The position numbers and the translations under genes are program-made. A model generated the notes under the pieces. That model did no database searches, had not been told where the DNA came from, and saw nothing but the letters and a program-made list of their open reading frames with translations. From positions 1 through 64,000 of the IMG/VR virus record IMGVR_UViG_3300036861_001052: a DNA stretch of 64,000 bases; one strand, 5' to 3'. This document shows, in pieces, positions 19,703 to 46,116 of this stretch. Numbering within the stretch: position 1 is the stretch's first letter; every line of letters begins with the position of its first letter. The DNA comes from a virus.

Positions 19703-19962
19703 TCCGCTTGATTCGTGAGGCCTATGCGCGCTTCCTTTTCCGGAAGTGGGACCGTGACTTCTACGCTGCAGAGAGACGGATGCGAGGATGCGCCCACGCC
19801 CGCACGGGCTTCGTCGACGTTGGCGTAGTGTACGAAAAATGCCGTGACTGCTGGGCACTTCGGGTGCCGGCTTTCGACGGGTCCGAAGCGCTACACTGGA
19901 CCCCGAACTCGGCGTCACCGAGACGGTCGCGCTGGGTGAGCGCGCCGGGAGAGAGCGCATGA
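19699..19962 (+). CDS. Hypothetical small protein with Cys/His pattern
   Basis: An 87-residue protein from GTG 19699 (GTGA overlap). The N-terminal basic helix (LIREAYARFLFRKWDRDFYA) is followed by GCAHARTGFVDVGVVYEKCRDC, where Cys/His residues could coordinate zinc. The C-terminal 25 residues look disordered. Its stop overlaps the macro-domain ATG. Confidence 0.5.
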   Translation: MIRLIREAYARFLFRKWDRDFYAAERRMRGCAHARTGFVDVGVVYEKCRDCWALRVPAFDGSEALHWTPNSASPRRSRWVSAPGESA

Positions 19963-20468
19963 TCCGCTTCGTCCAAAAAGGCTCCCTCTTCGGCTCCGAG
20001 ATGCAAACCCTCGTAAACCCCGTGAACCGGGTCGGAGTCTCCGGCGCGGGCCTCGCCAAGGACTTCAAGCGGCGCTGGCCGGACATGCATCGCGACTACG
20101 CCGCGGCCTGCAAGGATAAGACGATGGGGGCTCTCCGGCTCTCGTGGACCTTTCCGCACGTCCACATGGTGCTCTGCTTCGTTACGAAGGAGCACTGGCG
20201 AAACCCCTCGACTCTCGAGCTCATAGAACAGGGCCTCACCGAGTTTGCTGCCTCGGCCTGGATCAAAGACGGCACGATCACCAGCATCGCCTTTCCCGCG
20301 CTCGGCTGCGGCAACGGTGGCCTCGACTGGAAGGACGTCAGGCCGCTCATGACGCGGTATCTCGAGCCCCTCGATCTGCCGCTCGAGATCTACGAGCCGA
20401 TAGACCGAGCCGCTCTCGCTCGCTCGCGCGAGCGCGGTCCCTACCGCCGCAGAACGCAGGTCTTCTAG
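19959..20468 (+). CDS. Macro-domain protein, DarG-like (ADP-ribosyl binding or removal)
   Basis: A 169-residue protein. The ligand loop LVNPVNRVGVSGAGLAKDF (residues 18-36) has the Asn and Gly pattern of macro domains, followed by HMVLCFVTKEHWRNPSTLE and the second loop FPALGCGNGGLDW, with the GCGNGGL turn typical of DarG-type domains. Such domains bind or hydrolyse ADP-ribose on DNA or protein. In phages they can counter DarT-type DNA ADP-ribosylation defence, which is a reasonable but untested inference here. Its stop and that of the convergent fibre fragment share bases. Confidence 0.8.
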   Translation: MIRFVQKGSLFGSEMQTLVNPVNRVGVSGAGLAKDFKRRWPDMHRDYAAACKDKTMGALRLSWTFPHVHMVLCFVTKEHWRNPSTLELIEQGLTEFAASAWIKDGTITSIAFPALGCGNGGLDWKDVRPLMTRYLEPLDLPLEIYEPIDRAALARSRERGPYRRRTQVF

Positions 20469-20713
20469 CCCCCGAGCGGGAAGAGCGCGCCGTTAGACTG
20501 GGAGACGCAGTCGGCGCTAAATTCGGTCGCCCGGAGCGTCGCTGCCACGCCGGGCGCAAAGCCACCGAGGTTCGTGCCACCTACTAGGAGCGGGGCAGAC
20601 GACGTGTAGAGGAGCCACACCGTGACGGTCGCTGGATCGACGCCGTCGGGGATCGTGACCGCGGCCGAGCCCGCCATGCTGTCCCACTGCACGTCCGATT
20701 GGTTCTCGCCGAC
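20465..20713 (-). pseudogene. 3' fragment of a fibre-domain gene split by a transposon
   Basis: This segment encodes the last 82 codons (including stop) of a structural protein whose 5' part is at 24497-25216. Reading across the deleted transposon restores one uninterrupted frame: ...SRIPPAVG joins ENQSDVQWDSMAG, ending NGALFPLGG. An open frame from ATG 20782 exists but its first 23 codons lie in the transposon end, so it is probably not a native start. The fragment may still be translated as a truncated protein. Confidence 0.8.
20708..20713. repeat. Target-site duplication, left copy
   Basis: GCCGAC directly abuts the left terminal inverted repeat and recurs at 24497-24502 next to the right one. 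Removing the element and one copy restores the fibre gene frame, which supports the assignment. Confidence 0.75.
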
Positions 20714-20770
20714 GGGGCTTTGCCCGCTAATCGCCACCTGCCCGGCAATTGCTCCGGCTGCCCGACAATT
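20714..20770 (+). repeat. Left terminal inverted repeat
   Basis: Starts GGGGCTTTGCCCG and continues with two CAATT-containing blocks spaced 20 bases apart (gcccggCAATTgc, gcccgaCAATTcg). Read from the other end, the right terminus has the same GGGCTTTGCCCG start and two AATT blocks. The paired blocks are candidate transposase-binding sites. Confidence 0.65.
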
Positions 20771-20786
20771 CGAGATGGTCATCTGG

Positions 20787-21182
20787 TCATCGCCCTCTCC
20801 ATTCTTTCAGGTACTCGACGTACTCGTCTTCTGTGTGGCCGGGCTTTGGGTACGGCCATGACTCGGTGTCGTGCCGGCAGATGCGCTCGCCGGTAGGAAA
20901 CGTCTCGATAAACCACTCAGGGACACGTTCGCCGCATCTCGTGCAGGTCACATGACCGGCGGGGCTGCCTTTGCGTTCCGTACCGCGCCGACCCCACAGC
21001 CATAGGATGACCGAAAGGACTAGGAAAAACACGGAGACAGTGCCCAGCCAATTCCATGTCCACCAGGCAACGCTTGCGGCAGGAGCAACGTTCTTGATCA
21101 CGCTGACACCTCCGGTCGCCGCGGCAAGAAATACCGATACGATTGCTGCCCAGGACGCGGTGGGCCTAGTCTCTGGCGCCAC
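20787..21182 (-). CDS. Two-helix membrane protein with zinc-binding tail
   Basis: A 131-residue protein. Two membrane helices (SWAAIVSVFLAAATGGVSVI and LGTVSVFFLVLSVILWLWG) are followed by RRGTERKG and a C-terminal CTRCGERVPEWF...CRHD, a probable Cys/His metal site. The start overlaps the end of the XRE regulator gene, so the pair forms a leftward operon in the transposon. It may be a sensor or accessory membrane protein. Confidence 0.6.
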   Translation of the reverse strand: MAPETRPTASWAAIVSVFLAAATGGVSVIKNVAPAASVAWWTWNWLGTVSVFFLVLSVILWLWGRRGTERKGSPAGHVTCTRCGERVPEWFIETFPTGERICRHDTESWPYPKPGHTEDEYVEYLKEWRGR

Positions 21183-21528
21183 GCTTCTGCCCTCTGCGAT
21201 ACTCCCGGATCACTCCGCGGAGCATTCCGCGCACCGCGGGCATCGCCGCCGCAGGCACCGACTCCAGTAGAGCCACCATCGGATCTTTTTCTTCGTTCGG
21301 GAGCGCCGTCTCGCCGAAGAGCGCTCCGACTGGAAGCCTGAATGCGCGGGAGAGGCGAACCAGAGTCCCCACCGCCGGTAGCCGCTCGCCACGTTCGAGA
21401 AAACTTACGTACTCGACACTCAAGTCTAGTTTCTCGGCCAGTACAGCCTGGGACCAGCCCGCGCGGCTCCGACACGAGCGGACCGCTCTGCCTATCTGTT
21501 TGGCTGCTTTCTGTTCGATGTCGTCCAT
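21166..21528 (-). CDS. XRE-family transcriptional regulator
   Basis: A 120-residue protein from ATG 21528. Residues 10-65 hold a helix-turn-helix: IGRAVRSCRSRAGWSQAVLA, EKLDLSVEYVSFLERGERLP, VGTLVRLSRAFRLPVG. This is the classic HTH_3 pattern with 'GWSQ..LA...dLS..yvS..E.G...P...tL..L...'. The C-terminal 45 residues are helical. A dyad at 21590-21610 in the divergent promoter region is the likely target, controlling itself and the lipoprotein gene. Confidence 0.85.
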   Translation of the reverse strand: MDDIEQKAAKQIGRAVRSCRSRAGWSQAVLAEKLDLSVEYVSFLERGERLPAVGTLVRLSRAFRLPVGALFGETALPNEEKDPMVALLESVPAAAMPAVRGMLRGVIREYRRGQKRGARD

Positions 21529-21586
21529 TTCCGGGCAATGGAGCCCGGGGCGTCGACGACACGCGATGGACCGCCAGTACAGACCA

Positions 21587-21615
21587 TAGACACGTACTAC
21601 AAGTGCGTGTATCCA
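21587..21615 (+). promoter_or_regulatory. Divergent promoter region with dyad operator
   Basis: ACACG-ACT and AGT-CGTGT half-sites form an imperfect 21-bp dyad at 21590-21610, between the XRE gene and the lipoprotein gene. A rightward TAGACA (21587-21592) lies 17 bases from TATCCA (21610-21615), so a repressor bound to the dyad would cover the whole promoter. The promoter boxes are weak matches and inferred. Confidence 0.45.
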
Positions 21616-21637
21616 TGTCGATCCAAACGGGAGGCAC

Positions 21638-22423
21638 ATGATGGCTAAACGCGACTTGATGGGCTTTATGGCTGTATTCCTGCTTGGTTGTGGGGGCTCG
21701 GATGCTCCGAATGCGCCCGGCGCCGGTGGCGCCAATGTCGCGACAGGCGGTTCCACGTCCGCTGGCGGTGTCGCGACCGGGGGCGCTGCCGGTGCTGCCA
21801 CCGATACCGGTGGCGTCGCGAGCACAGGCGGGGCGCCCGGCAACGGCGGCGCGGGAGGAAGCGTTTCGAGCGGCGGCACAATAGCCACCGGCGGAGCGGC
21901 ACCGACAACGGGTGGCGTCCCAGGAACTGGCGGCGCTCCTAGCTGCCCAGTGAGCCTCCAGTGCGGCACTGCTTGCTGTAATCCCTTGGCCGTCTGCTAC
22001 GACGACGGGGCCGGGAACATGAGCTGCGCCGTGGCCTGCAGCCGAAACTCCGAGTGCCCAGGAGCAACGCCCGTCTGCACACTGTTCGCCGACGGCTCGT
22101 CCGGCTGCACACCAGACCTCGGTGGTCTCCAACGATGCGAAACAGCAGCCGACTGCTCTACCGGAGCATGCGCACCGAATGTGGATACGTCCGGAAACCC
22201 AATCGGACCGTTCATTTGTGTGCCGAACGACGGCGCCGCATACCACGGGTGCCACGGCCTTCTGACGACGTGCTCGGCGCCGTACTGCTGCTTCACGGAC
22301 GGGAACGACAACCAATTCTGTGCGACGGCGTGCGTGAACGATTCCCAGTGCGGCGCAGCGCATTGCCGGTCGCTCAGCAACGCGAACACGACCTGTTCCG
22401 CGACAATGGGCTGCGCCCCGTAG
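21638..22423 (+). CDS. Gly-rich, Cys-rich lipoprotein
   Basis: A 261-residue protein; GGGAGG precedes ATG 21638. The signal peptide ends in the lipobox VFLLGCGG. Residues 25-105 are Gly/Ala/Thr repeats, then a Cys-rich module (CGTACCNPLAVC, CAVACSRNSEC, CETAADCSTGAC, CCFTDGNDNQFC) with about 20 cysteines in paired spacing. It is likely an outer-membrane or surface lipoprotein of myxobacterial type carried as cargo. It may protect the host cell or mask a receptor (superinfection exclusion), which is only an inference. Confidence 0.8.
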   Translation: MMAKRDLMGFMAVFLLGCGGSDAPNAPGAGGANVATGGSTSAGGVATGGAAGAATDTGGVASTGGAPGNGGAGGSVSSGGTIATGGAAPTTGGVPGTGGAPSCPVSLQCGTACCNPLAVCYDDGAGNMSCAVACSRNSECPGATPVCTLFADGSSGCTPDLGGLQRCETAADCSTGACAPNVDTSGNPIGPFICVPNDGAAYHGCHGLLTTCSAPYCCFTDGNDNQFCATACVNDSQCGAAHCRSLSNANTTCSATMGCAP

Positions 22424-22704
22424 ACTCCGGCAGCTAGGGGGGCGCCGCCGGCAACGCGCATTTGTCGTGTCACGACGATTGCGCGACATACTTTTTGACT
22501 TCGTCTGGGGCATGGAGAGATGGGGGTATAGAAATAGATAGATGGCCGACCTAGGTCGGCCACGACGGGCATCGCGAGCGTTAGTGGCGCTCGGATTGAT
22601 GACCCGAACGGAGGAGTCATGTGCACCCCCCACAGACGGGTCACTCCGTCGCGGCCAACCTGCGTCGGCCGTCTCGTTCTGCCCCCGGAGCAGCGGCGTG
22701 AGCG
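22424..22704. other. Gene-free gap in the transposon with a 20-bp palindrome
   Basis: No supported gene lies here. Besides the terminator it contains a perfect 20-bp palindrome at 22543-22562 (TGGCCGACCT and its complement) preceded by an AT-rich run ggtatagaaatagatagatg. A binding site for one of the element's DNA-binding proteins is possible. A GACCCG...CGGGTC inverted pair flanks 22600-22640. Confidence 0.5.
22455..22485 (+). terminator. Hairpin after the lipoprotein gene
   Basis: CGCGCA (22455-22460) pairs with TGCGCG (22480-22485), and inside GTCGTG pairs with CACGAC. A T-rich stretch (acatacttttt) follows. Position 30 bases after the lipoprotein stop suggests a terminator, with the T-run somewhat displaced. 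Confidence 0.55.
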
Positions 22705-22872
22705 CTAGTTCATACCGGCGGCACGGCCCGCTACCCAACGGATCCAATTGCTCAAGTCGCGGCCCTCGCGCTCCGCAGCTTTCACGAAGGCTTCTTTCTC
22801 GGCATCGGTCAGGCGCAGACGGATCGACGCTTCTTTCCGGTCGCCTTTTGGTTTTCGACGCTTCGTCGCCAT
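22705..22872 (-). CDS. CopG/MobC-like small DNA-binding protein
   Basis: A 55-residue protein from ATG 22872 (an upstream in-frame start at 22950 would overlap the transposase promoter). A basic N-terminus is followed by ASIRLRLTDAEKEAFVKAAE and REGRDLSNWIRWVAG. The strand, helix and 'dLS.WIR' end are typical of ribbon-helix-helix plasmid or mobile-element proteins. It may repress the divergent transposase gene; a TGTGGCCACA palindrome at 22882-22891 sits just upstream. Confidence 0.65.
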   Translation of the reverse strand: MATKRRKPKGDRKEASIRLRLTDAEKEAFVKAAEREGRDLSNWIRWVAGRAAGMN

Positions 22873-22881
22873 GTGGCCCAG

Positions 22882-22891
22882 TGTGGCCACA
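22882..22891. promoter_or_regulatory. Palindrome between CopG-like and transposase genes
   Basis: TGTGGCCACA is a perfect 10-bp palindrome, with a further gtggcc copy six bases away, in the 88-base gap between divergent genes. Candidate operator; no binding evidence. Confidence 0.4.
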
Positions 22892-22960
22892 GTGGAATAC
22901 GCGGTCAAGAGGAATCGTTTGCTCGCGCCCGTCGTATCTTGTGGCAACACCGGAGATACA

Positions 22961-24160
22961 ATGGATACCAGGCAGGAACGCGGACGAGCACTCGCTCAGA
23001 ACAAGAGGATCAGGCAGGTCCAGGACGCTCTCTGGTCCGTTCCTTCCCAGACCCAGAACTCGGGCGGCTACCTCGTGGATGTGCGCGCGGCCACATGCAC
23101 TTGTCCAGATCACGAGGAGCGCCGCACGAAGTGCAAACACCTCTGGGCCGTCGAATTCGTTCAGACGGTCGAGGTCCAGTCGGACGGCTCCGCGACAATG
23201 ACCGAATCCGTAGTCCTGACCCGGAAGTCCTACGCCCAAGACTGGCCGCGCTACAACGCCGCTCAGTGCGCCGAAAAGGCGACCGCGCAAGCGCTTCTCC
23301 GTGGGCTCTGCGCCGGCATCCAGACGCCGCCGCACCCCGGACGTGGTCGCAAGCCTACGCCACTCTGCGACGCTGTATTTGGCATGACGTGGAAGGTCTA
23401 CACGACCATGAGCGGCCGTCGTGCCACGACGGACCTGGAAGCGTGCGCCGACGCCGGTCACATGCGGAAGGCCCCTCGTTACAATACGCTTTTCGACCTG
23501 TTCGATCGTCCTGACATGACGCCGCTCCTGACGACGCTGGTTGAGGAGAGTGCGGCGCCGCTTGCGTGCGTCGAATCGAACTTCGCCGTCGATTCCACCG
23601 GATTCGGCACTGTCACGTACCGCCGATGGTTCGACCACAAATACGGACGCGAGATGAGGGAACACGGGTGGGTCAAAGCCCACGCGATGGTCGGCACGAA
23701 CACCAACGTCATCACCGCGATCCGCGTAACAGGTGGTTACGAAAACGATTGTCCGGAGCTTCCAGCACTGGTCGACGCGACGAGACGGCGCTTCGCCCTG
23801 GCGGAAGTCAGCGCGGACAAGGCGTACCTGTCCCACGGAAGCCTCGCCGCCATTGAAGCCGCTGGAGCAGTTCCGTACATCCCATTCAAGATCAACTCCA
23901 AGGCTGACGGCTCGGCCGCGTGGCGCCGAATGCTTGGCCTCTTTCTGTTCAAACAGGCGGACTTTTTTGCGCACTACCACGCACGGTCGAACGTCGAGAG
24001 CACCTTCTCTGCCCTCAAGCGCAAGTTCGGCGGATCCGTCCGGTCGAAGAACGAAACCGCACAGGTCAATGAGGTTCTGTGCAAGGCGTTGTGCTTCAAC
24101 CTTTCGTGTCTCGTCCACGCGATCCACGAGCTTGGAATCGATCCGACCTTTGCGAGGTGA
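22961..24160 (+). CDS. SWIM zinc-finger DDE transposase
   Basis: A 399-residue protein from ATG 22961. Residues 38-60 hold a SWIM-type finger (CTCPDHEERRTKCKHLWAVE; CxC...CxH). The catalytic core has Asp in FAVDSTGFGT, Asp in VSADKAYLS and Glu in RSNVESTFSALKRKFGG, the DDE order of DDE_Tnp_1-type enzymes, with a long central region. Matching inverted repeats and a 6-bp duplication flank its element, so it probably catalysed the insertion. The SWIM domain may recognise the ends. Confidence 0.85.
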   Translation: MDTRQERGRALAQNKRIRQVQDALWSVPSQTQNSGGYLVDVRAATCTCPDHEERRTKCKHLWAVEFVQTVEVQSDGSATMTESVVLTRKSYAQDWPRYNAAQCAEKATAQALLRGLCAGIQTPPHPGRGRKPTPLCDAVFGMTWKVYTTMSGRRATTDLEACADAGHMRKAPRYNTLFDLFDRPDMTPLLTTLVEESAAPLACVESNFAVDSTGFGTVTYRRWFDHKYGREMREHGWVKAHAMVGTNTNVITAIRVTGGYENDCPELPALVDATRRRFALAEVSADKAYLSHGSLAAIEAAGAVPYIPFKINSKADGSAAWRRMLGLFLFKQADFFAHYHARSNVESTFSALKRKFGGSVRSKNETAQVNEVLCKALCFNLSCLVHAIHELGIDPTFAR

Positions 24161-24163
24161 GTC

Positions 24164-24442
24164 GTGAGCGACCTGACAGACCAGGAACAGGCCAACGTCC
24201 GCAAGGCGCTCGCGGTCCTGCGGCTGCGGTGCGGTACGTGGGTAACGCTCGCGAAGGCCCTGCGCGTGAAGTACTCGACGCTGCAACGCGCGGCTGGCGG
24301 CCACGACGCGGTGAGTGCGCGACTGGCGCTCAGAACCGCTCGACTCGTCGGAATCGGTATCGACGACATTCTCGTCGGGAAATGGCCGCCTCCGAACACG
24401 TGTGCCCACTGTGGACAGCCGATGCCCAGGCCTGCCCGGTAA
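24164..24442 (+). CDS. Helix-turn-helix protein with C-terminal CxxC
   Basis: A 92-residue protein from GTG 24164, four bases after the transposase stop. Helices (VRKALAVLRLRCGTWVTLAK and LRVKYSTLQRAAGGHDAVSA) resemble an XRE-type reader. The tail CAHCGQPMPR suggests half a zinc site. Its stop falls two bases into the right inverted repeat, so it is the last element gene. It may regulate transposition or the upstream operon. Confidence 0.6.
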   Translation: MSDLTDQEQANVRKALAVLRLRCGTWVTLAKALRVKYSTLQRAAGGHDAVSARLALRTARLVGIGIDDILVGKWPPPNTCAHCGQPMPRPAR

Positions 24443-24496
24443 TTGCGATGCCTGCACGAGAATTGCGCCAGGCGTTCGCATTCCCGGGCAAAGCCC
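24441..24496 (-). repeat. Right terminal inverted repeat
   Basis: Reading leftward from 24496 gives GGGCTTTGCCCG, AAT, then two AATT blocks, mirroring the left end. A hairpin (CGGGC aaa GCCCG) forms within 24485-24497. Confidence 0.65.
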
Positions 24497-24502
24497 GCCG
24501 AC
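24497..24502. repeat. Target-site duplication, right copy
   Basis: GCCGAC abuts the right inverted repeat; identical to 20708-20713. Its phase relative to both halves of the fibre gene is the same, so loss of the element restores the frame. Confidence 0.75.
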
Positions 24503-25216
24503 GGCGGGAGGAATGCGCGAGCCAGCCTGGCCGTTACCGACAGCGAAAAAGTCGTTCGGAAAAGACGGCGACGCCGTGAACGCGATCGCCGGCACGGCCG
24601 AAAACTGCACGTTCGTGTTGGGGTCCGTGTTGCCGAGCGTCATGTTCCAGTAGATCTCGACGACGTTGCCCGGCACGGCATTCGGTAAGACCACCTGAAG
24701 AGGCGCCGGATCGGGACTCGCGTCACGCGGAAACGGCTCGCTCGAGGCCGCCTGCACCTCGAAGCTCACCGTAGGCTGGTCCCAGCCGGTCTGGACGAGG
24801 CACGGCGCCTCTCCGTCGCCGCCGGCAACGGTGCCCGTGACGACCATCCCCATGAACTCCGTCCCCGAGCTCGATCCGGCGATCTGCGTGTCCGAAAACA
24901 CGTCGCTCACAGCCGGGCTTGCGGCGAGCCGAGCAATCAGCAGGGCTTCGGACTCGCTCGCGAGAAAGCACGTGACCACGGGCGGCTCCGACTGAAAGCC
25001 TCCGGTCGTGTCGGCGAGAAGGCCCGCGTCTATTTCGACGACGAAGCTCGGTCCCTGTCCGCCGCCCGCGAGCGTGAGACCCACGACGACGTAGCCGTCC
25101 GGCAGAGCGCCGATGGCGTCGTTCACGCGGAGGGTGAGATCATCCGGAAGCGAGCTCTCGACGATGCGCGTGATGAGCGACGACGCCGCCGAGACCGCGA
25201 CTGATCCGTACTTCAT
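24497..25216 (-). pseudogene. 5' part (240 codons) of a transposon-split fibre-domain gene
   Basis: From ATG 25216 the first about 130 residues match the shared N-terminal domain of the other fibre genes (KYGSVAVSAASSL, YVVVGLTLAGGGQGPSF, GFQSEPPVVTCFLA, GTEFMGMVVTG). The C-terminal part (STVSFEV-like region to FFAVGNGQAGSR) is beta-rich. The coding sequence stops being native at the 6-bp duplication 24497-24502. Without the element it would be a 320-residue protein ending at 20465. The frame also stays open far into the transposon, so a chimeric protein is possible. Confidence 0.8.
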
Positions 25217-25224
25217 GGGCTCGC

Positions 25225-26073
25225 TCAGGCCGAAGCGCGGAGAGAAGCCGAGAGCACAGAGCCGGCAGCCGAAGTGATGCGGAGACCGAGCTTCGTCGAC
25301 GCGATCACCTGAGGCTCGAGGACGACGAAGCCCAGGACCGACACGTTGTCGAACTCGCCGGCAGCGACGTGACCCTTGGTCGACGCGACCACGCTCGGCG
25401 TCCCGAGCGGATCGGTCACGATCTCGGCAGTGAAATCTCCATCCGCCGTGAGGCCCACGGTGATGCTCGCTTCAATCTCAGCGAAGATCGCGCTCGTGCC
25501 CGTGTAGAGGATCTCTTGCGGAGAGGCCAGCGTGAACCGCGTGCCCATACTGAGCGCGTCGAACGCCAGGATGGTCTCTCCCGCACCGAGCGCCTGGAGC
25601 GTGGTCGCGACGGCGAGGAGTCGAACGTCATTGCCGCCGAGCGGCACGGACGACGCCCCGAATACGGTGAGGCCCATCACGCGCTGGCCCTTGGCGGCGC
25701 CGGCGACCTGCTCGTCCACCACCCCGAATGGCACCAGGCCTCCCGCCGGCGGCGGCACGCCCGCGGCGGTCTTCGCGCGCGCGAGCGCTTCCGGGTCGCT
25801 CCCGAGGTAGCACCGCACCAAGGTGCCCGAGATGCCGTTGATCGCTCCGATGAGCCCGCCGTTCACGTCGTCGAGAGGCGCCGTCTCGAGGAGCACGGTG
25901 AAGCTGTGGCCGTCTCCCGACCCAGCCAGAGAGATCGAGCTAGTGACCCTCGAGTTACCGTCCACCGCGAGGAGGGCGGCGTTCACGAGGGCTTCGAGCT
26001 CTTCTGGATCTGCGGCCTCGAGAAAAAAGGTTTCCGTGTCCGCGTTGCCACCAACTGTTCCAAATTGCGTCAT
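25225..26073 (-). CDS. Structural protein of the shared N-terminal-domain family
   Basis: A 282-residue protein, ATG 26073, overlapping the previous stop. The N-terminal part (FGTVGGNADTETFFLEAADP, VTSSISLAGSGDGHSF, LVRCYLGSDPEAL, GAAKGQRVMGLTVFG) follows the same order as the fibre family: initial strand, 'lAG.GdG..F', 'v.cYl.s..eal' and 'a.kGqrfMG'. The C-terminal 110 residues are a beta-rich domain (ILYTGTSAIFAEIEASITV). Probably a virion protein; no enzymatic motif. Confidence 0.65.
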   Translation of the reverse strand: MTQFGTVGGNADTETFFLEAADPEELEALVNAALLAVDGNSRVTSSISLAGSGDGHSFTVLLETAPLDDVNGGLIGAINGISGTLVRCYLGSDPEALARAKTAAGVPPPAGGLVPFGVVDEQVAGAAKGQRVMGLTVFGASSVPLGGNDVRLLAVATTLQALGAGETILAFDALSMGTRFTLASPQEILYTGTSAIFAEIEASITVGLTADGDFTAEIVTDPLGTPSVVASTKGHVAAGEFDNVSVLGFVVLEPQVIASTKLGLRITSAAGSVLSASLRASA

Positions 26074-27137: not shown

Positions 27138-27623
27138 CTACCTGGACAGGACGCGGCGGGCTAGTACCACGCCGATGCTAGCCAAACCGACCCCGAAGAA
27201 AGCCCGCACGCCGGGCCTCGCTAGAAACGGTCTGTCCTCCGGCCACGGCAGGTCTGGATCGGGGCAGTCAGCGTCACCCGTGCACACGTCGGAAATCTTG
27301 AGCCCCGGATGCCACTCGAAGTGACCCGGATCCCAGCCCCAGTCGCCGCCCCAGACCCCGCCCATCTTCTTCCAGTACTCGCCGAGAATCGCGTAGCCGT
27401 CGGAAAGCCCGTCGATGTGCAGGTCCGCGGCGCGTCCCCAGACGTGCCAGGAGATGCAGCCTCGCGCCTGCGTCGCGACTCCTGGCGCCGACTCGTAGAT
27501 GGCGTTCTGCTCGGCGCAGCTCCGCCTTGTCGAGACGACGTGGGCTGAGACGCCGCTCCGAGCCGCGAAGCGGAGGAGCTCGTCGAGCTTGTCGCTCATC
27601 CACGGCGTGAGATCGGGGTTCAT
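27138..27623 (-). CDS. M15-type peptidase (VanY-like), membrane anchored
   Basis: A 161-residue protein. The metal site is visible as SWHVWGRAADLHIDG (SxHxxGxAxD) followed by HFEWHPG, the family's second His pair. This is the D-Ala-D-Ala peptidase fold used by many endolysins. The last 25 residues (AFFGVGLASIGVVLARRVL) form a membrane helix. It cleaves peptidoglycan stem peptides, most likely in release. It overlaps the next gene upstream by four bases. Confidence 0.8.
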   Translation of the reverse strand: MNPDLTPWMSDKLDELLRFAARSGVSAHVVSTRRSCAEQNAIYESAPGVATQARGCISWHVWGRAADLHIDGLSDGYAILGEYWKKMGGVWGGDWGWDPGHFEWHPGLKISDVCTGDADCPDPDLPWPEDRPFLARPGVRAFFGVGLASIGVVLARRVLSR

Positions 27624-27973
27624 TCGAAGGCAGGCTCTGGCTCCGCCGAGAGCTCCGGGGGGTTCGGCTCCTGCGGGACTGGAGCGGGGTTCTCCTCGTA
27701 CTCCTCTTTCTTCCGCCGCGGCCTTCCTCGGTAGACTTCGGCAGTGACGTTCTCGCCGGTCCTGGCCTCGTACTGCGCGACGATGCGGAAGCCCTGCCGC
27801 GACTTAGGATTCGTGGTCACGGCGCGATCGTGTTTGCCTTCCGTCGCGCCGATGCGCGCGAGGTCTTTCGCAGCCTTGAGCTCGAGAGGCTTTCGATTCA
27901 CCTGGCGGACGGGGCTTCGGCGGTCCCGGATCCCCATTTCCCAGACGTGGTAGCCGTGGGCGTTCGGCTTCAT
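27620..27973 (-). CDS. Hypothetical basic protein
   Basis: A 117-residue protein. The N-terminal HGYHVWEMGIRDRR and middle RQGFRIVAQYEARTGENV are folded-looking. The last 35 residues are Pro/Glu-rich and disordered. It lies between the M15 peptidase and amidase and overlaps its neighbours by ATGA. No family known. Confidence 0.5.
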   Translation of the reverse strand: MKPNAHGYHVWEMGIRDRRSPVRQVNRKPLELKAAKDLARIGATEGKHDRAVTTNPKSRQGFRIVAQYEARTGENVTAEVYRGRPRRKKEEYEENPAPVPQEPNPPELSAEPEPAFE

Positions 27974-28212
27974 TCGTCACCTCTAATGGCTATCTTCATC
28001 GCAGCATCGGCGACAGCCCCAACCGGATCCACCAAGAACCCCAGGGTGGACTTCGCCGCTTCCGGCAGATCGCTCGCGTAGAGTTCTCTCCGGAACCTCG
28101 CGCGCTCTTCGAACTCGACGAGCATCGCCGCGGCGCGCGCGATCACCTTGTCGAAGCGACGTGCTTGGCGCGCCTTCATCCTGGCTTTCCTCGTGCGCTT
28201 CTCCCGGCTCAC
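27970..28212 (-). CDS. Small basic protein upstream of lysis gene set
   Basis: An 80-residue protein; GTG 28212 overlaps the amidase TGA (GTGA). The N-terminus is a very basic helix (SREKRTRKARMKARQARRF), then AAAMLVEFEERARF and a DPVGAVADAAMKIA segment. It may be membrane-associating or nucleic-acid binding. Unknown. Confidence 0.5.
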   Translation of the reverse strand: MSREKRTRKARMKARQARRFDKVIARAAAMLVEFEERARFRRELYASDLPEAAKSTLGFLVDPVGAVADAAMKIAIRGDE

Positions 28213-29021
28213 GTCGCCTCCTTCGCCCATAGGAGCACCACGTCCTTCGGGTAGTTCAGGCCAGGATCTGTATGCGTCGTCTGATGAAACGCTAGCCGGA
28301 CGTCGTTATGCGTGCAGAGCCCTCGGCCGCCGGCTCGGAGCGTACCCGGAGTGAGCCACACGAGCGGGACGTCCCACTTCTTCGCCTCGAAGGCTATGAG
28401 GCGCGCGACGAGCCGCAGCATGCTCTGGCCGTAGGGATCGAGCCACTCGTCCCTGGTCTGCTTCGCGTATCCGGCCTGCTCGATGCCGATCGTCCATTCG
28501 TTTGGCGGCGCGTGGTAGGCGATGTGCTCGTCGGGCACGCAGCGGATGATGCTGTCGACGTCGACGACGAGGTGCGCGCTCGCGGGCTTCTTCGGTCCAA
28601 GCTGGAAGTACGTTCCGATCGCCTCGGCACTCGAGAGGCCCTCTCCGGTCTCTGCCGAGTGGACCACGATGGCGTCGATCGAGGGGCGATTCGCCCAGCG
28701 CCAGTACTTGGCAGGCACGTCCTTGATCGGAGGCAAACCCGTATCCGGAGGCGGCGACGGATCGATGAAGAGCGTCGGGTCAATGAACGCGCGGGTCTTC
28801 GGGCCAACGACTCCGTCAGGCTCGAGCTTTCGCCGCCTCTGAAACTCTTTTGTCGCTTCCTTCGTGACCGCGCCGAAGCCGCCATCGACCGTGATGGGCC
28901 AGGAGTATCCCCACGGCTCGGGGCGCTTTTCGTAGCGCTGGACCGCCTGCCACGCGGCCACGTCGTGGCCGACCATGCCCTGCTGGAGCAGCCGCCATTC
29001 GCTCGGAGCAGGCTTGAGCAT
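28209..29021 (-). CDS. N-acetylmuramoyl-L-alanine amidase (endolysin) with peptidoglycan-binding domain
   Basis: A 270-residue protein from ATG 29021. Residues 10-75 are a PG_binding_1 module (VAAWQAVQRYEKRP, VDGGFGAVTKEATKEFQRR, GVVGPKTRAF). Residues 115-265 form an Amidase_2 fold: DAIVVHSAETGE carries the first zinc His, DSIIRCVPDEHIAYHA lies in the centre, and HTDPGLNYPKD the second. This is the standard phage endolysin layout. It has no signal peptide and would need a holin-type partner; small membrane proteins are nearby (29030, 30204). Confidence 0.85.
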   Translation of the reverse strand: MLKPAPSEWRLLQQGMVGHDVAAWQAVQRYEKRPEPWGYSWPITVDGGFGAVTKEATKEFQRRRKLEPDGVVGPKTRAFIDPTLFIDPSPPPDTGLPPIKDVPAKYWRWANRPSIDAIVVHSAETGEGLSSAEAIGTYFQLGPKKPASAHLVVDVDSIIRCVPDEHIAYHAPPNEWTIGIEQAGYAKQTRDEWLDPYGQSMLRLVARLIAFEAKKWDVPLVWLTPGTLRAGGRGLCTHNDVRLAFHQTTHTDPGLNYPKDVVLLWAKEAT

Positions 29022-29029
29022 TGGAGTTT

Positions 29030-29611
29030 TTACCTGTCGACGCTCACGCTCACCGGCAGAAGCGCGAAGCCGCCCTTGTCCGGCTCGTGAAGATCGCAGG
29101 CGCGGCCCGCTGATTGAGGCACCTCGATGTGCCGGCCGCCCTCGCACCAAGTCGATCCAGGATCGGTATTCTTGTAGGCGATCTTCTGACCGCGGCTCGC
29201 GAGCCACGACGACGGATCCACGCTCGCCATTGCTCCACCCGGCAAAAATTCCGTGACGCTGAAGTAGACGCGGCCCGTCGACTCGCCGAGCTTCTGCCCG
29301 CGGCCGACGTACTGCCCCTCTTCGACGTCACCCGGCACGACGCCGTCCATCATCACGAAGACCGGCTCGTAGAGAGATCCGACGACGACGAAGCTATCGC
29401 CGACTGCCGCGACGCGTCCTCCCACTGTCGAGTACACAGGGCTACCCTGTGGGGTACTAATCACGAGACTTGGATCGCACACGCTACCCCGGCGGGTACT
29501 GGGACAGGACTCCACACTGCCCTCTTTCACTACGGCTCGAAACGGCCGAAAAAACGTTTTGACGATCGCGACGCCGGCAATCGCTCCGAGCACATAGGGC
29601 GCAGTACTCAT
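29030..29611 (-). CDS. Membrane-anchored M23/lipoyl-like beta-barrel protein
   Basis: A 193-residue protein with an N-terminal helix (APYVLGAIAGVAIVKTFF). The middle GSPVYSTVGGRVAAVGDSF, MMDGVVPGDVEEGQYVGRGQ and GESTGRVYFSVTEF resembles an M23 peptidase or biotinyl/lipoyl-like barrel with the 'G..v.aG..iG..G.tGr' rhythm. The usual zinc ligands (HxxxD, HxH) are not visible, so it may be an inactive or binding version. It follows the endolysin and may act in peptidoglycan contact. Confidence 0.55.
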   Translation of the reverse strand: MSTAPYVLGAIAGVAIVKTFFRPFRAVVKEGSVESCPSTRRGSVCDPSLVISTPQGSPVYSTVGGRVAAVGDSFVVVGSLYEPVFVMMDGVVPGDVEEGQYVGRGQKLGESTGRVYFSVTEFLPGGAMASVDPSSWLASRGQKIAYKNTDPGSTWCEGGRHIEVPQSAGRACDLHEPDKGGFALLPVSVSVDR

Positions 29612-34835: not shown

Positions 34836-35882
<1,047 letters not shown>

Positions 35883-35918
35883 CTATCAGAAAGCCGCCCG
35901 CCGCGGGGGCGCTCCGGA

Positions 35919-36551
35919 TCACCGGTCCTTCTTTCGAGACGTCAGAGTCGCCGAGAGATCGAGCACCGCGTTCCAGTGGTCGTTGAAGCGGCGGGCACGC
36001 ACCTCGTCGGCGTAGAGCGCGAACTCGGTGATGCCGATGGGGATGACGACGTAGTCGAAGTCGCACGAGACGGGGTAGTGCCCGACGCCCATCTCCTGCC
36101 GGTTCTTGGCGTTCAGGTAGGCGAAGGTCTGCTGGTTGATGAAGCGGCGGTGGGTCGGGTCCTGAAAGGCGCGGTCGCTCCGCGCGCAGGGCACTTGCAC
36201 TTCCATCTTCCCGCCAGGGACGAGAATGCGATAGCACTCGTCGAAGAACGCGAGGAAGTAGTCTCGCCCCACGAACTCTCCACTCGGATCGTCGCCGCGC
36301 TCGATGAACCTCGCGGGAATATGCTCGACGAAGTGCGTCGCATTGATCTCGTCGACGCTCGACGTCTTCCAGGGAAGCGGAAAGCACATGAGATCCACGT
36401 GGTGAGTCCCGCAGCCCGGACGTATGTCGACACCCTCGAATCCCTCCTTAGGTGCGCCTCCGCAGCCGAAGTCGAGCCGGAGCCCCGGCGTCGGCTCGTA
36501 AAGTACGGGTTCAGTAGACAACGCCGGTCTCCACGTCGAGGTGACCGACAC
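35919..36551 (-). CDS. SAM-dependent methyltransferase-like protein
   Basis: A 210-residue protein from GTG 36551, overlapping the glycosyltransferase gene by 41 bases; TTG 36521 is an alternative. LRLDFGCGGAPKEGFEGVDI is a SAM motif I with the acidic ribose position, followed by DLMCFPLPWKTSSVDEI, NATHFVEHIPARF and VPGGKMEVQVPCARSDRA. This matches small methyltransferases that act on sugars or lipids. With the adjacent glycosyltransferase it may modify glycan of the fibres or host. Confidence 0.75.
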   Translation of the reverse strand: MSVTSTWRPALSTEPVLYEPTPGLRLDFGCGGAPKEGFEGVDIRPGCGTHHVDLMCFPLPWKTSSVDEINATHFVEHIPARFIERGDDPSGEFVGRDYFLAFFDECYRILVPGGKMEVQVPCARSDRAFQDPTHRRFINQQTFAYLNAKNRQEMGVGHYPVSCDFDYVVIPIGITEFALYADEVRARRFNDHWNAVLDLSATLTSRKKDR

Positions 36552-37250
36552 GAACGCGCGTGTCGACGGCGATGCGCATTCCGGCGAGCCGCATCCGCTC
36601 GCAGAAGTAGAGGTCCTGGGTCTTCATCTCGACGCCTCGTTTTTCAGGGAAAACATTGTTCACCGTCACGAACCACGGCGGGGGGATCTTCCGAAACGTG
36701 TCCATGCGCCAGAGGGCGCAACCCATCCCGATGCCGTTCACCTCGATGATGTTGCCGCCGCGCATTGCGTCGACGACGTTACGCGGCTCGAACGTGCAGA
36801 CGCCCGTTTTTTCGAAGTCCCGCGGGTTACCGTAGGCCTGCGGCATGTTGTAGGCGCCCTTGGTGAAGTAGATGCCCGAAATAGCGGCAAAGGGGCCGAC
36901 ATCGATCGACTGCAAGAGCTGGATGTGCGCGTCGGGAGGCGGAAGGTTGTCGTCCTCGAGCGTCAGCACGTACTTGTAGCTCGAGAACATCTCGTTTTTG
37001 AGAATTTCCTCGATCATCCTGTTGTAAGCGTGGCCTACTTCGTCGCCGACCGCATAGATCTTCGCTCGCCGTTGATTCATCGGCTGGATGAGACTCTCCC
37101 AAGCATTGACGACACGGAAATGGATCTTGCCGCGCGTCGGCACGACGATAATCGTCGAAGAGTCCCGAAACGTGCTCCCCGGCAAGAGCTCGACGCGCTC
37201 GAAGCCGAGCATCCTGTCTTTTTCAGCGGCCGCTTGGACGTCGATCAGCA

Positions 37251-37251
<1 letters not shown>
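36511..37251 (-). CDS. GT-A family glycosyltransferase-like protein
   Basis: A 246-residue protein. STIIVVPTRGKIHFRVVNAW opens the fold, DEVGHAYNRMIEEILKNEMF follows, and YVLTLEDDNLPPPDAH holds the DxD-like acidic cluster; later NGIGMGCALWRMDTFR and FVTVNNVFPEKRGVEMKTQD complete a GT2-like catalytic core. It would transfer a sugar from a nucleotide-sugar donor. Located between two collagen-like genes and overlapping a methyltransferase gene, it could decorate the fibres. Confidence 0.75.
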
Positions 37252-38933
<1,682 letters not shown>

Positions 38934-38976
38934 TTATTCTCCGTTAAAATAGACTACCAGAACTTCTCCGGGCCTT

Positions 38977-39312
38977 CTACTCCGCCGCGTGCCGCGCCTC
39001 CCGGTCCTCGACGACCTCTTCGGCGTCGTAGAGAGCGGCTAGCACTTCCAGATAGAAGCGATTCATGGAAGGGGGAGCGATCCCCCCCGCGTCCTGCATG
39101 CTCGCATCCTTCACGAGCATGTCGTGCTCCATGTCGGTGAAGATCTTGTCACCCGGACACGCCAGCTTGTCCGAGATGGAGAGCGCGACCTTCACGTTTC
39201 CAATCCGCCTCCAGAACGGCCTCGTCAGCACCACTTCTTCGAGTACATCCTCGGCCGAGTAGGCCTTGTTGCCAATGGGCACCACCTTCTTCGGCAGTCG
39301 AACCTTCTTCAT
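38977..39312 (-). CDS. Hypothetical phage protein, possible assembly factor
   Basis: A 111-residue protein behind AAAGGAGAG. KKVRLPKKVVPIGNKAYSAE and then DVLEEVVLTRPFWRRIGNVK form a folded N-terminus. A helical C-terminus follows (RFYLEVLAALYDAEEVVEDR). Small helical proteins between fibre genes are often assembly chaperones, but I have no direct evidence. Confidence 0.5.
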   Translation of the reverse strand: MKKVRLPKKVVPIGNKAYSAEDVLEEVVLTRPFWRRIGNVKVALSISDKLACPGDKIFTDMEHDMLVKDASMQDAGGIAPPSMNRFYLEVLAALYDAEEVVEDREARHAAE

Positions 39313-39333
39313 GCTCTCTCCTTTTTCACTTCC

Positions 39334-41163
39334 TCATGCCGCGAACGCCGGGACCTTCAACTGGGTCCCGCCGATGTTGATATCCAAAAACCGGTCCACC
39401 GTTGCCGGCACGGCAGCCCCAGCGCCCGCGTTCGCGGTCGTGCTCGTGCCGTTCAGGCGAAGATTGATGCCGTTGAAGCGCCAGGCCGGTAGGCCTCCAG
39501 TCGAGTACTGAATATAGCCGTTCACGGCGTCTGCAGTCGGGTTCGTCTGAGCGTTGGCGACATAGATGATGCCGTCGCCCGTATTCGCCGGAAGCTCCGT
39601 CGTCGACACGCCCGAGAGCTTGACGAGCGAAAGCACTCGCCTGTCGAGCGCGACCTCGGTGGCCTCGACCATTGCCAGCGCTCCGGCCGAAGTATCGTCG
39701 ACATTCAAGCTCATCCTGACACCGCCCATGAGCCCGTTTCCGTCGGGGCCGCCACCAGATAGGAGGAGAATGCCGCCGTCCCCGTCGGCCCCTCCCGCGG
39801 TAACCGACTGCGCGTGTATCCAGAGCCGCTGCGCGGCAGGCCCGAGGCTCGCCTGTTGAATGATGTTCGGGTTTGCGACGGTCCGTATGAACGACAGCTC
39901 CGCCGGCGTAAACTCCGACCTGGTCGAGTTTATCGTGAGCCGCGCCGTTCCGGTGATGTCGACCTGGAATGTCGTCACACAGCGGAGCTGAAGTGTCGGC
40001 GTATGCACGTCGTCGCCGATCTGAAGGCTGTTGGTCGCGGCATCGGCGACGAAGCCCTGCACGTCGAGCGTGTTCGTCGCGTTCCGGTAATAGAGGATCC
40101 AGCCCTTCGTGAGCCTGATCGTTCCGGTGCTTGCGACCGGAGCGGCGAGGCCTCCGCTGCCGTGAATCGCCAGCACCTCTCCGACCTCGAGGGCGTTCGC
40201 AACCTGCACGTTGTAGGTGCCGCTCGGAAAAATCGTCAGCCGATCGGTCGGCGGCGAGCTCGAGGACGCCCGGAAGATGATCTTCTGAGGAACGCTTCCC
40301 GCGGCGACGGCACCGGACACCTCGAATGAAATCTCCGAGCTCGCGACATAGTTCGCGCCGTCGAATCCGGCGGACACGACTCTCGCGAGGCTATCGCCAT
40401 TGGCGACCGTCGTTTGCGCGACGCGCGTGCCCCGGCTCTTCATCCCGAGGAAACGCGCTGCCGCGGTGTCCGCCGAGTGCTGCGCGGCAATGATTCCGCG
40501 CACGGTCGCAGACCCCGTCTGGACGGAAACGACGCTGCCTGCGGCTTCGCCGTTCGTGACGGCGCTGCCGGCGTAGTAGCTCCCGGTCGTGAAGAGATTC
40601 TCGGCCTGGAAGTTCGTGGACCACGTCGGGACGCCGCCGATCGTGATGATGGCCTGGCCATTCGTGCCGCTTGGCGTGATGCCGATCTGGAGCTGTTCGT
40701 TCGCGCCGGGATTGAGCACGGTCGTCGTGATGAGCGAGCCCTCGGCGACCTTCGGATCTAGATAATTAGGCGTCGTGTCGGCCGCCGTCACGGCGACCAG
40801 GTTCGACGCGATGCCCGTCGGGCCCGTAGATCCCGTGGGGCCAGTCGGACCGGTAGCGCCCGTCGGTCCCGTGGGGCCAGTCGGGCCGTCCGTTGGCCCC
40901 GTGGGCCCGGTCGCGCCCGTGTTCGCGGCGCCGCCCGGAGTTCCCGTGGGGCCGCTCGGCCCGGTCGGCCCCGTCGCGCCTGTTGCGCCCGTGTTCGTGG
41001 CGGCTCCGCTCTGGCCCGTGGGGCCCGTACTGCCGCTCGGCCCCGTCGCGCCCGTCTGTCCCGTCGCTCCGGTCGGACCCGTCCCCGCCGTCCCGCCGCC
41101 GAAACCGGGCGGGACACGCGCGGTGCCGCGCCCAGATGTTCCGGTGCGATCTCGGATGGTCAT
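39334..41163 (-). CDS. Collagen-like fibre/spike protein without the shared N-terminal domain
   Basis: A 609-residue protein. After a short basic start ([16 protein letters not shown]), residues 26-118 are collagen-like. Residues 120-560 are beta-rich with repeating motifs ([32 protein letters not shown]) typical of phage tail-fibre shafts, ending [15 protein letters not shown]. The C-terminal stop precedes a short gap before 39312. It is the only collagen-like gene here lacking the common anchor, so its attachment may differ. Confidence 0.65.
40811..41088 (-). repeat. Collagen-like (Gly-Pro-Thr) coding repeat
   Basis: Residues 26-118 of the 39334-41163 protein, about 90 residues of Gly-X-Thr-Gly triplets with AATNTGATG-type breaks. 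Confidence 0.85.
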
Positions 41164-41171
41164 GTCATCGG

Positions 41172-43485
<2,314 letters not shown>

Positions 43486-43953: not shown

Positions 43954-44018
43954 GACTCCGAGGATAGCCTGGGGGCGATGCCGTGTGAAGCTCCGAGGAT
44001 CGGGGCCCCGACTTCGGC

Positions 44019-44024
44019 TATAAA
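44019..44024 (+). promoter_or_regulatory. TATAAA -10-type promoter, rightward
   Basis: GGCTATAAAACGG lies 14 bases upstream of ATG 44038 in an otherwise GC-rich divergent gap. No good -35 box is seen. The same core appears leftward at 32082-32087, suggesting a shared phage promoter class. Confidence 0.45.
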
Positions 44025-44037
44025 ACGGGGCTGCCAC

Positions 44038-46116
44038 ATGAGTGACCCGGAGGTGCGGCTCGTCCTCTCCATGATCGTCCGGAACGAGTCCCGCGTCATC
44101 GATCGGTGCCTCGATAGCGCCCTCTCTATCGCGCAGGGCTTCGTCATCTCGGACACCGGCTCGACCGACGACACCAAAGAGCGCATCGCGCTAGCCGGAA
44201 AGCGGCACGAAGTGCCAGGGATCGTCGTCACCGATCCCTGGAAGAACTTCGGCTGGAACCGCACCCGCGCCGCGAATGCGACCCGGCGCTGGGTCAAGGA
44301 AAAATCCTGGGACCTTGACCATACCTACATGCTCCTGCTCGACGCGGACATGGTCCTTCGGGTGCTGCCGTCCTTCAAACGGCAAGCTCTTTCCGCCGTT
44401 TACTACCAGATCGAGCAGCGGAGCCCGAGTCTCTCCTGGCTAAACACACGGCTTTGCAGGCTTTCCCATAACTGGGAGGCCATTGGCGTGACGCACGAGT
44501 ACTGGGCGCCGGCCCCCAATGCGTCTCCTGAGCGCCTCGACTCCCTCTACATAGAAGACGTCGGCGACGGCGGCGCCAAGGGCGACAAGACCGCACGGGA
44601 CATACGCCTGCTCACCGACGGGCTCAAAGCCGAGCCGGACAACGTCCGCTACTACTTCTACCTCGCCCAGTCGTACTTCGATGTCGGTAACTACGCTGCG
44701 GCTCTTCCTCTCTATGAAGAGAGGCGGCGTCGCGGCGGATGGGCCGACGAGTGCTGGTACTCGCTCTTCAAGATGGGCCTCTGCGAGCTCCGGCTCGGCC
44801 ACGACCGAGAGGGCACGCGACTTTTGCACCAGGCGTTCGAGGAGAGACCCGGGCGCGCCGAGTCCGTCGCGCACCTCGCCCGCTTCTACAGAGAGCGGGG
44901 CTCGAATAACCTGGCGGTGCTCTTCGCGAGAGAGGCGCTTCGGATCCCAGTCTCGACCGAGAGCCTCTTTGTCGAGACGACCGCGCATCTGGAGATGCCG
45001 CTCGAAGATCTCGGGATCTCCGCCTACTACACGCCGCACAAGGACGAGGGCCGGCTCGCGTGCGCAAAGCTCCTGAGCCTGCCCGGCTCCAGGGAGTTTC
45101 ATAACCACATCCTTCGCTGCACGAGCTTCTATGCAAAGCCCATCGCGCCCCTCGCTGTGCGCAGGGGGACGTTCGCGATCCCGGAGGAGCTCCTGTCCGC
45201 GCCGGGGCCGTTTCTCGGGACCGAAGAGAACAAGACGCGGTACCTACCTAAAAATCCGTCCATTGCCCACCTTGGCCCCGGCTCCTCGCCCCTCGTCAGC
45301 GTGAATCTCGTAAACTACCACCACGAGCGCGGCGTCATCTTCGCGCCGAAGGATCCTGACGGCATCGTCCGCACCCGCAACGTAAACTTCGTCTGGGATC
45401 CCGTCCGCGCAGAGACAACCCATCTGCGAGAGTTCACTCCGTCGGAGTGGCCGGGCGGATGGGCAGCCGAGCCGCACGTCAGAGGTCTCGAGGATGTGCG
45501 ACTCTTCGCTCACCGTCAGCAAATATGGTTTACCGCAACGTGCTTTCATCCTCCGACGAAGCCAGGCTCACGCCATCTGTTCATCCCGAGCGTAGTCCTC
45601 GGTAAGCTCGGTCCCGCCGGCGTGGAGCATCTGACCGCGCTCACCTACGCCCGGGCCGGGCACTGCGAGAAGAATTGGCTCCCGTGGTCCAACGGAGAGC
45701 AGGTCTTCATGCTCTACGGCTACGATCCGCTCGTCGTGCTCGAGGTAGACGTCGTGACCGGCGTTGCGCGCGAGACCAGCCGGCGCTCACCAGGCCGTTC
45801 AGCTGCCTCCTGGCGCGGCGGCGCGCCGCCCGAAATCTCTCCATGGGGCAGGCTCGTGTTCATCGTGCACGAGGTCGCTCACTTCGACGACCGGCGCGTC
45901 TACATGCACCGCTTCGTCGAGCTCGACCGGGAGCGCTCGCTCTCTCGGTGTAGCCTTCCCTTCGTGATTGACCACGCGGGCGTCGAATACGTGGCCGGGC
46001 TCCTTTCGCTCGGAGAGACCGCGATCGTGACGTACGGACACGAAGAACGTGAAGCGCGGTGGGCCGAGTTTTCCTGGGAGGACATCGGCCGCTTACTCGG
46101 AGAAGACGCACTATGA
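44038..46116 (+). CDS. Three-part glycan enzyme: GT2 + TPR + glycosidase-like beta-propeller
   Basis: A 692-residue protein; ATG 44038 chosen behind the TATAAA box. Residues 1-200 are a GT2 domain (LVLSMIVRNESRVIDRCLDS, GFVISDTGSTDDTKER, MLLLDADM). Residues 210-330 are TPR-like helices (YYFYLAQSYFDVGNYAAALP, WYSLFKMGLCELRLGHDREG). Residues 390-690 resemble a five-bladed glycosidase propeller (RGLEDVRLFAHRQQIWFTAT, NWLPWSNGEQVFMLYGYDPL). The GT-TPR-propeller order is known in large bacterial and giant-virus glycan proteins. It would assemble or trim a glycan. Confidence 0.7.
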   Translation: MSDPEVRLVLSMIVRNESRVIDRCLDSALSIAQGFVISDTGSTDDTKERIALAGKRHEVPGIVVTDPWKNFGWNRTRAANATRRWVKEKSWDLDHTYMLLLDADMVLRVLPSFKRQALSAVYYQIEQRSPSLSWLNTRLCRLSHNWEAIGVTHEYWAPAPNASPERLDSLYIEDVGDGGAKGDKTARDIRLLTDGLKAEPDNVRYYFYLAQSYFDVGNYAAALPLYEERRRRGGWADECWYSLFKMGLCELRLGHDREGTRLLHQAFEERPGRAESVAHLARFYRERGSNNLAVLFAREALRIPVSTESLFVETTAHLEMPLEDLGISAYYTPHKDEGRLACAKLLSLPGSREFHNHILRCTSFYAKPIAPLAVRRGTFAIPEELLSAPGPFLGTEENKTRYLPKNPSIAHLGPGSSPLVSVNLVNYHHERGVIFAPKDPDGIVRTRNVNFVWDPVRAETTHLREFTPSEWPGGWAAEPHVRGLEDVRLFAHRQQIWFTATCFHPPTKPGSRHLFIPSVVLGKLGPAGVEHLTALTYARAGHCEKNWLPWSNGEQVFMLYGYDPLVVLEVDVVTGVARETSRRSPGRSAASWRGGAPPEISPWGRLVFIVHEVAHFDDRRVYMHRFVELDRERSLSRCSLPFVIDHAGVEYVAGLLSLGETAIVTYGHEEREARWAEFSWEDIGRLLGEDAL

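Follow-up and report, generated by a model that had tools for sequence, protein, structure and literature searches.

Two reading frames on the minus strand of a phage genome, one on either side of a 3,780-bp segment, raise the question of whether they are the halves of a single gene and what kind of element came between them. The segment occupies positions 20716-24495 of the 64,000-nt stretch analyzed here (the window), which belongs to an IMG/VR record of 138,414 bp. It has the ends GGCTTTGCCCG and carries on both sides a perfect 9-bp duplication, CGCCGACGG. Very probably, it is an IS5/IS903-type transposon with cargo that inserted in a fibre-like gene. Its limits are as follows.

20707..20715, no strand assigned: left copy of the target duplication, 9 bp, CGCCGACGG
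20716..24495, plus strand: transposon, 3,780 bp, bounded by its ends and the duplication
20716..20731, plus strand: left terminal inverted repeat, GGCTTTGCCCGCTAAT
24480..24495, minus strand: right terminal inverted repeat, GGCTTTGCCCGGGAAT on that strand
24496..24504, no strand assigned: right copy of the target duplication, 9 bp, CGCCGACGG

The terminal repeats agree at about 13 to 14 of 16 positions rather than at all of them. The initial annotation had proposed a transposon insertion with inverted repeats and a flanking duplication, all of which are present, but its boundaries need correction: the 6-bp duplication that it gave, GCCGAC, is only the middle of CGCCGACGG, and the first G of its end, GGGCTTTGCCCG, is part of the duplication. 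The element thus begins one base further in, and its true ends are GGCTTTGCCCGnnAAT. A search of the whole 138,414-bp record for a second copy of the transposon returned this single match. We infer the empty site from the one consensus assembly in which the insertion is known.

Excision of the transposon together with one duplication copy removes 3,789 bp, a number divisible by 3, and yields one ORF of 320 residues that runs from 25216 to 20465 on the minus strand, as had been foreseen from the sequence at the outset. The two parts of this ORF and its upstream neighbour are arranged as follows.

20465..20706, minus strand: interrupted fibre-like gene, C-terminal part with the stop codon
24505..25216, minus strand: interrupted fibre-like gene, N-terminal part, about 237 residues, of which residues 1 to about 135 are a shared anchor domain
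25225..26073, minus strand: 282-aa paralogue lying upstream of the interrupted gene

The interrupted ORF starts 8 bp past the stop of the 282-aa paralogue. An ATG-proximal promoter search gave one weak match, no more than chance. In the restored phase, GC contents at the three codon positions are 0.65/0.52/0.82 before the junction and 0.66/0.55/0.84 after it; in the C-terminal part, both alternative frames of this strand hold stops. No second copy of the C-terminal half was found in the same record. At its 3′ side, the gene converges with a macro-domain-like protein (window 19959-20468) that overlaps its stop and has a 71% identical relative elsewhere in a related phage (L046). With the transposon present, the fibre frame does not end at the insertion but continues to 21098, some 1,130 codons further on, because it is exactly antisense to and in phase with the transposase codons and free of stops. 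The resulting 1,372-aa ORF (window 21098-25216) is an artefact of base composition, which automatic annotation would call as a false giant protein.

Residues 1 to about 135 of the interrupted gene recur at six other places in the record, with 37 to 54% identity, and the paralogues presumed by the initial annotation are thus real. At least four of these six genes continue as collagen-like fibres with GPTG repeats and differing C-terminal parts.

34836-35873: collagen-like fibre paralogue
37251-38933: collagen-like fibre paralogue
41172-42641: collagen-like fibre paralogue
104997 onward: collagen-like fibre paralogue

A 560-aa paralogue matches PHROGs tail-fibre families at 1e-34. In the paralogues, collagen-like repeats follow the shared N-terminal domain, which likens them to the collagen-like tail fibres of PHROGs 5073, 6320, and 1806, whereas the interrupted gene has no collagen repeats (the GXT type is absent from the joined 320-residue sequence) and a C-terminal part without relatives. 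We call it fibre-like because its anchor domain is common to collagen-like genes, one of which matches tail-fibre families; the sequence supports this designation. The original reading of a structural-type gene split by a transposon is likewise supported by the frame, the codon-position GC contents, and the paralogues. The stretch 34836-42641 is a collagen-like fibre array with one N-terminal domain and varied C-terminal parts, likely an adhesin repertoire. Methyltransferase-like and glycosyltransferase-like ORFs stand among the collagen-like genes (35919-37251, 43978-47468), possibly for fibre modification; their relatives in other phages of the group are similarly placed. Two endolysin-type genes lie near the fibre region (window 27138-29207), and a search of the record with PF03237 for a large terminase was negative.

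Related phage contigs of about 76 to 140 kb share the genes of the fibre region in the same order. An intact 320-residue homologue free of the element, which the initial annotation had named among its checks, was sought by tblastn in 50,697 phage records, by scanning viral contigs with a pattern for either half, and at 12 related-phage loci, and none was found. The C-terminal 180 residues gave no match in the phage records, the viral contigs, or the related loci. In four syntenic relatives, the homologue of the gene at 25225-26073 is followed by other phage genes and the interrupted gene is missing, which makes the latter look lineage-specific. Since no orthologue of its unique C-terminal part was found, there is no clock by which to date the insertion, which the initial annotation had taken to be recent; the perfect duplication and the undamaged halves are compatible with a young one.

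The transposon encodes a single transposase.

22961..24160, plus strand: transposase, 399 aa, with a SWIM zinc finger (C46, C48, C58, H60) and a DDE domain (D211, D286, E346)

Pfam recognizes DDE_Tnp_1 (3.6e-21) and SWIM (1.3e-4) in this protein. All seven of these zinc finger and DDE residues are invariant in 22 aligned transposases, as are Y339, R342, E346, and K353, which make up the Y(2)R(3)E(6)K signature. The best neighbours in a fold search were the ISCth4 and Tn5 transposases, both remote. The best NCBIfam model is IS5_2 (NF033579), on which the protein scores 119.2 bits, below the cut-off of 140; two relatives score above it (145.5 and 153.6) and two below, and the IS903 transposase reaches 357.6 bits. 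Because of this score, we call the element IS903-like and do not file it as an IS5_2 member. The copy of IS903 in phage HK022, our yardstick, is 1,057 bp long, begins with GGCTTTGTTGAATAAATC, and has a GGCTTTG end and a 9-bp duplication like those of the window element. The GGCTTTG terminal repeat, the 9-bp duplication, and the DDE domain are thus shared with the IS903 group, whereas the N-terminal SWIM zinc finger, the fixed subterminal iterons described below, and 1-7 kb of cargo are additions; identity to the IS903 protein is only about 26%. Compact insertion sequences of about 1 kb hold a transposase gene alone, whereas this element spans 3,780 bp and has five other ORFs. Transporter IS (tIS) are IS derivatives with passenger genes (PMC9330008). 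Each has a single transposase gene, and its one pair of ends encloses passengers that do not serve transposition, an arrangement found here; a tIS of the IS903 group is the fitting class. A composite transposon was rejected, as there is one transposase and no IS copy at either end, and a Tn3-type reading was rejected by anatomy.

This element belongs to a widespread family of cargo-carrying transposons, which the initial annotation had not noticed. Scans for the transposase turned up 22 loci among bacterial and archaeal genomes; viral contigs gave 4 plus 28, the sets overlapping. In samples from two phyla, 3 of 284 and 5 of 297 genomes carried it; one or two copies in a genome are usual. Thirty-one elements were bounded, 19 in viral contigs and 12 in bacterial genomes. 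All 31 start with GGCTTTG, and a perfect 9-bp duplication flanks 27 (the window element and 26 others); two of the remaining four, L002 and L014, show 10-bp duplications. Lengths range from 2,667 to 8,877 bp (median, 4,298 bp), and none is the size of a bare IS. Four viral contigs (L065, L066, L070, and L072) share one 5,308-bp element at equal coordinates, without the 9-bp duplication (1 of 9 positions matching). The member at 5720-14596 of L058, of 8.9 kb and with a perfect 9-bp duplication, seems to include in its cargo ORFs of structural appearance, among them one for a beta-helix tailspike-like protein. We found no paper joining SWIM, transposase, and IS903 in the open-access literature, which is weak evidence of novelty, and we know of no published account of a SWIM and iteron branch in the IS903 group. 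Novelty of the family as such is likely rather than certain.

The word that follows GGCTT at the ends (TGCCCG..AA in the window) is repeated in the same orientation 24 and 44 bp from the left end and 43 and 63 bp from the right.

20739..20748, plus strand: subterminal iteron TGCCCGGCAA, element position 24
20759..20768, plus strand: subterminal iteron TGCCCGACAA, element position 44
24433..24442, plus strand: subterminal iteron TGCCCGGTAA, 63 from the right end
24453..24462, plus strand: subterminal iteron TGCACGAGAA, 43 from the right end

Among the 31 elements, a copy stands at position 24 in 21, at 44 in 19, at right 43 in 22, and at right 63 in 15, and hardly any other position within 120 bp of the ends holds one. 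IS903 from HK022, in contrast, has no repeats at positions 24 and 44. The word varies between elements (TGCCCA, TGCACA, TGCCTC, TGCAAC, TGCACG, TGTTTA) and agrees within each. Comparison of internal words with the ends of their own element gave 859 matches, against 665.7 after permutation (standard deviation, 18.5; maximum, 746 in 5,000 permutations), a value that measures agreement within elements related by descent and not independent events. Such agreement would be expected if the transposase reads the word and both change together. Our guess is that reading occurs through the SWIM domain.

Five further genes make up the remaining content of the window element.

20787..21182, minus strand: cargo, small membrane protein with Cys/His pairs
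21166..21528, minus strand: cargo, XRE-type HTH regulator
21638..22423, plus strand: cargo, putative lipoprotein, Cys-rich and Gly-rich, 261 aa
22705..22872, minus strand: ribbon-helix-helix-like small protein, divergent from the transposase, with relatives in several other elements
24164..24442, plus strand: second, conserved gene for a 92-aa HTH-like protein whose CxHC tail resembles a zinc ribbon

The 92-aa gene lies just downstream of the transposase and has relatives in about nine other elements. It and the ribbon-helix-helix-like gene recur in the family; the other cargo differs between nearly all elements. A comparison of the window cargo with defence and resistance functions returned nothing beyond generic HTH matches, and among 189 genomes of one phylum, 2 hold weak matches to the 261-aa lipoprotein. 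Cargo of other elements, as assigned by Pfam, includes the following.

L048: N4/N6 methylase with a BstXI nuclease
L025: N4/N6 methylase with a BglII nuclease
L047 and L052: N4/N6 methylases with unrecognised partners
L062: methylase fused to an Mrr-like domain
L059: C5 methylase and HNH nuclease
L024, L067, and L074: type I-like methylases
L056 and L065: HTH and IrrE-like proteins
L021: AbiJ-N-terminal-like protein
L027, 6308-6814: protein with a zinc-ribbon-like start followed by a superinfection-immunity domain (PF14373, 4.1e-14)

The L027 protein and the window protein at 20787-21182 both pair membrane helices with Cys/His motifs. Restriction-modification (R-M) genes occur in 9 of the 19 elements from viral contigs and in 0 of the 12 from bacterial genomes (p = 0.005, for a small sample that ignores kinship and takes the contigs as viral as called). 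Mobile R-M units whose inverted repeats are imperfect and whose target duplications are short have been described (PMC3874152), as has IS-linked movement of R-M units (PMC3031569). Several family members resemble these units: their R-M operons lie between inverted repeats, and short duplications are present. What sets them apart is a transposase gene within the unit as the mover and an interchangeable cargo; the window element itself is without R-M genes.

We propose that a cut-and-paste IS5/IS903-type transposon with passengers entered a soil-type phage of about 138 kb, at about codon 238 of the 320 of a fibre-like gene, and duplicated 9 bp in the process. Its transposase probably recognizes the short word TGCCCG..AA in the terminal repeats and at the fixed subterminal sites, laid out as three copies in a row on the left and as the inverted end plus two copies on the right; the putative and likely reader of the word is the SWIM zinc finger. 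The enzyme would cut at GGCTTTG by DDE chemistry and join the ends to the staggered target strands. The truncated gene keeps the anchor domain. The native protein would be lost or altered, because the frame runs on for those roughly 1,130 codons antisense to the transposon, and the phage would then have to rely on paralogous fibres.

Three other accounts deserve weighing. The element may be an ordinary IS903-group IS lengthened by later gain of unrelated DNA, in which case its cargo would be meaningless. The diversity of passengers and the lack of any recognised defence or resistance function in the window cargo would suit this account, but not one of the 31 elements comes near the size of a bare IS (minimum, 2,667 bp against 1,057 bp for IS903), and the ends, the iteron spacing, and the two small flanking genes persist as the cargo varies. 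Several cargoes, moreover, are coherent operons, in which a methyltransferase accompanies a BstXI-like, BglII-like, or HNH nuclease, and we regard later lengthening as very unlikely.

That the flanking ORFs are separate genes joined in frame by chance is somewhat more improbable still. An open run of 82 codons is expected by chance in 19% of cases in resampled DNA of this GC-rich composition and is on its own weak evidence for the restored frame, and the C-terminal part has no relatives. Chance would nevertheless have to account for the exact phase obtained by removing the element and one duplication, for the matching codon-position GC, for the stops in the other frames of the C-terminal part, and for a joined gene that ends against its convergent neighbour. 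Misassembly of a bacterial transposon with phage DNA might be suspected of a single copy in a metagenome-derived record; it is scarcely credible here, as the sequence on either side comes from one phage gene, the 9-bp duplication is perfect, and relatives of both neighbours occur elsewhere in this phage group. Insertion of an IS903-like cargo transposon into a fibre-like gene thus remains our reading of the locus.

It is possible, though we would not call it probable, that an undescribed IS903-like branch with a SWIM domain, asymmetric iteron ends, and interchangeable cargo is a general vehicle that brings R-M and other exclusion modules into phages, each lineage having an end word of its own and a transposase that reads it. 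Should the family hold up, R-M systems would gain a defined mover within the same unit, some of the R-M units noted earlier, with their inverted repeats and short duplications, would be explained, and natural pairs of transposase and end word would become available for studying how recognition of DNA ends diverges. For the phages themselves, the locus indicates that large cargo transposons enter structural genes and that phages with several paralogous fibres could absorb such insertions.
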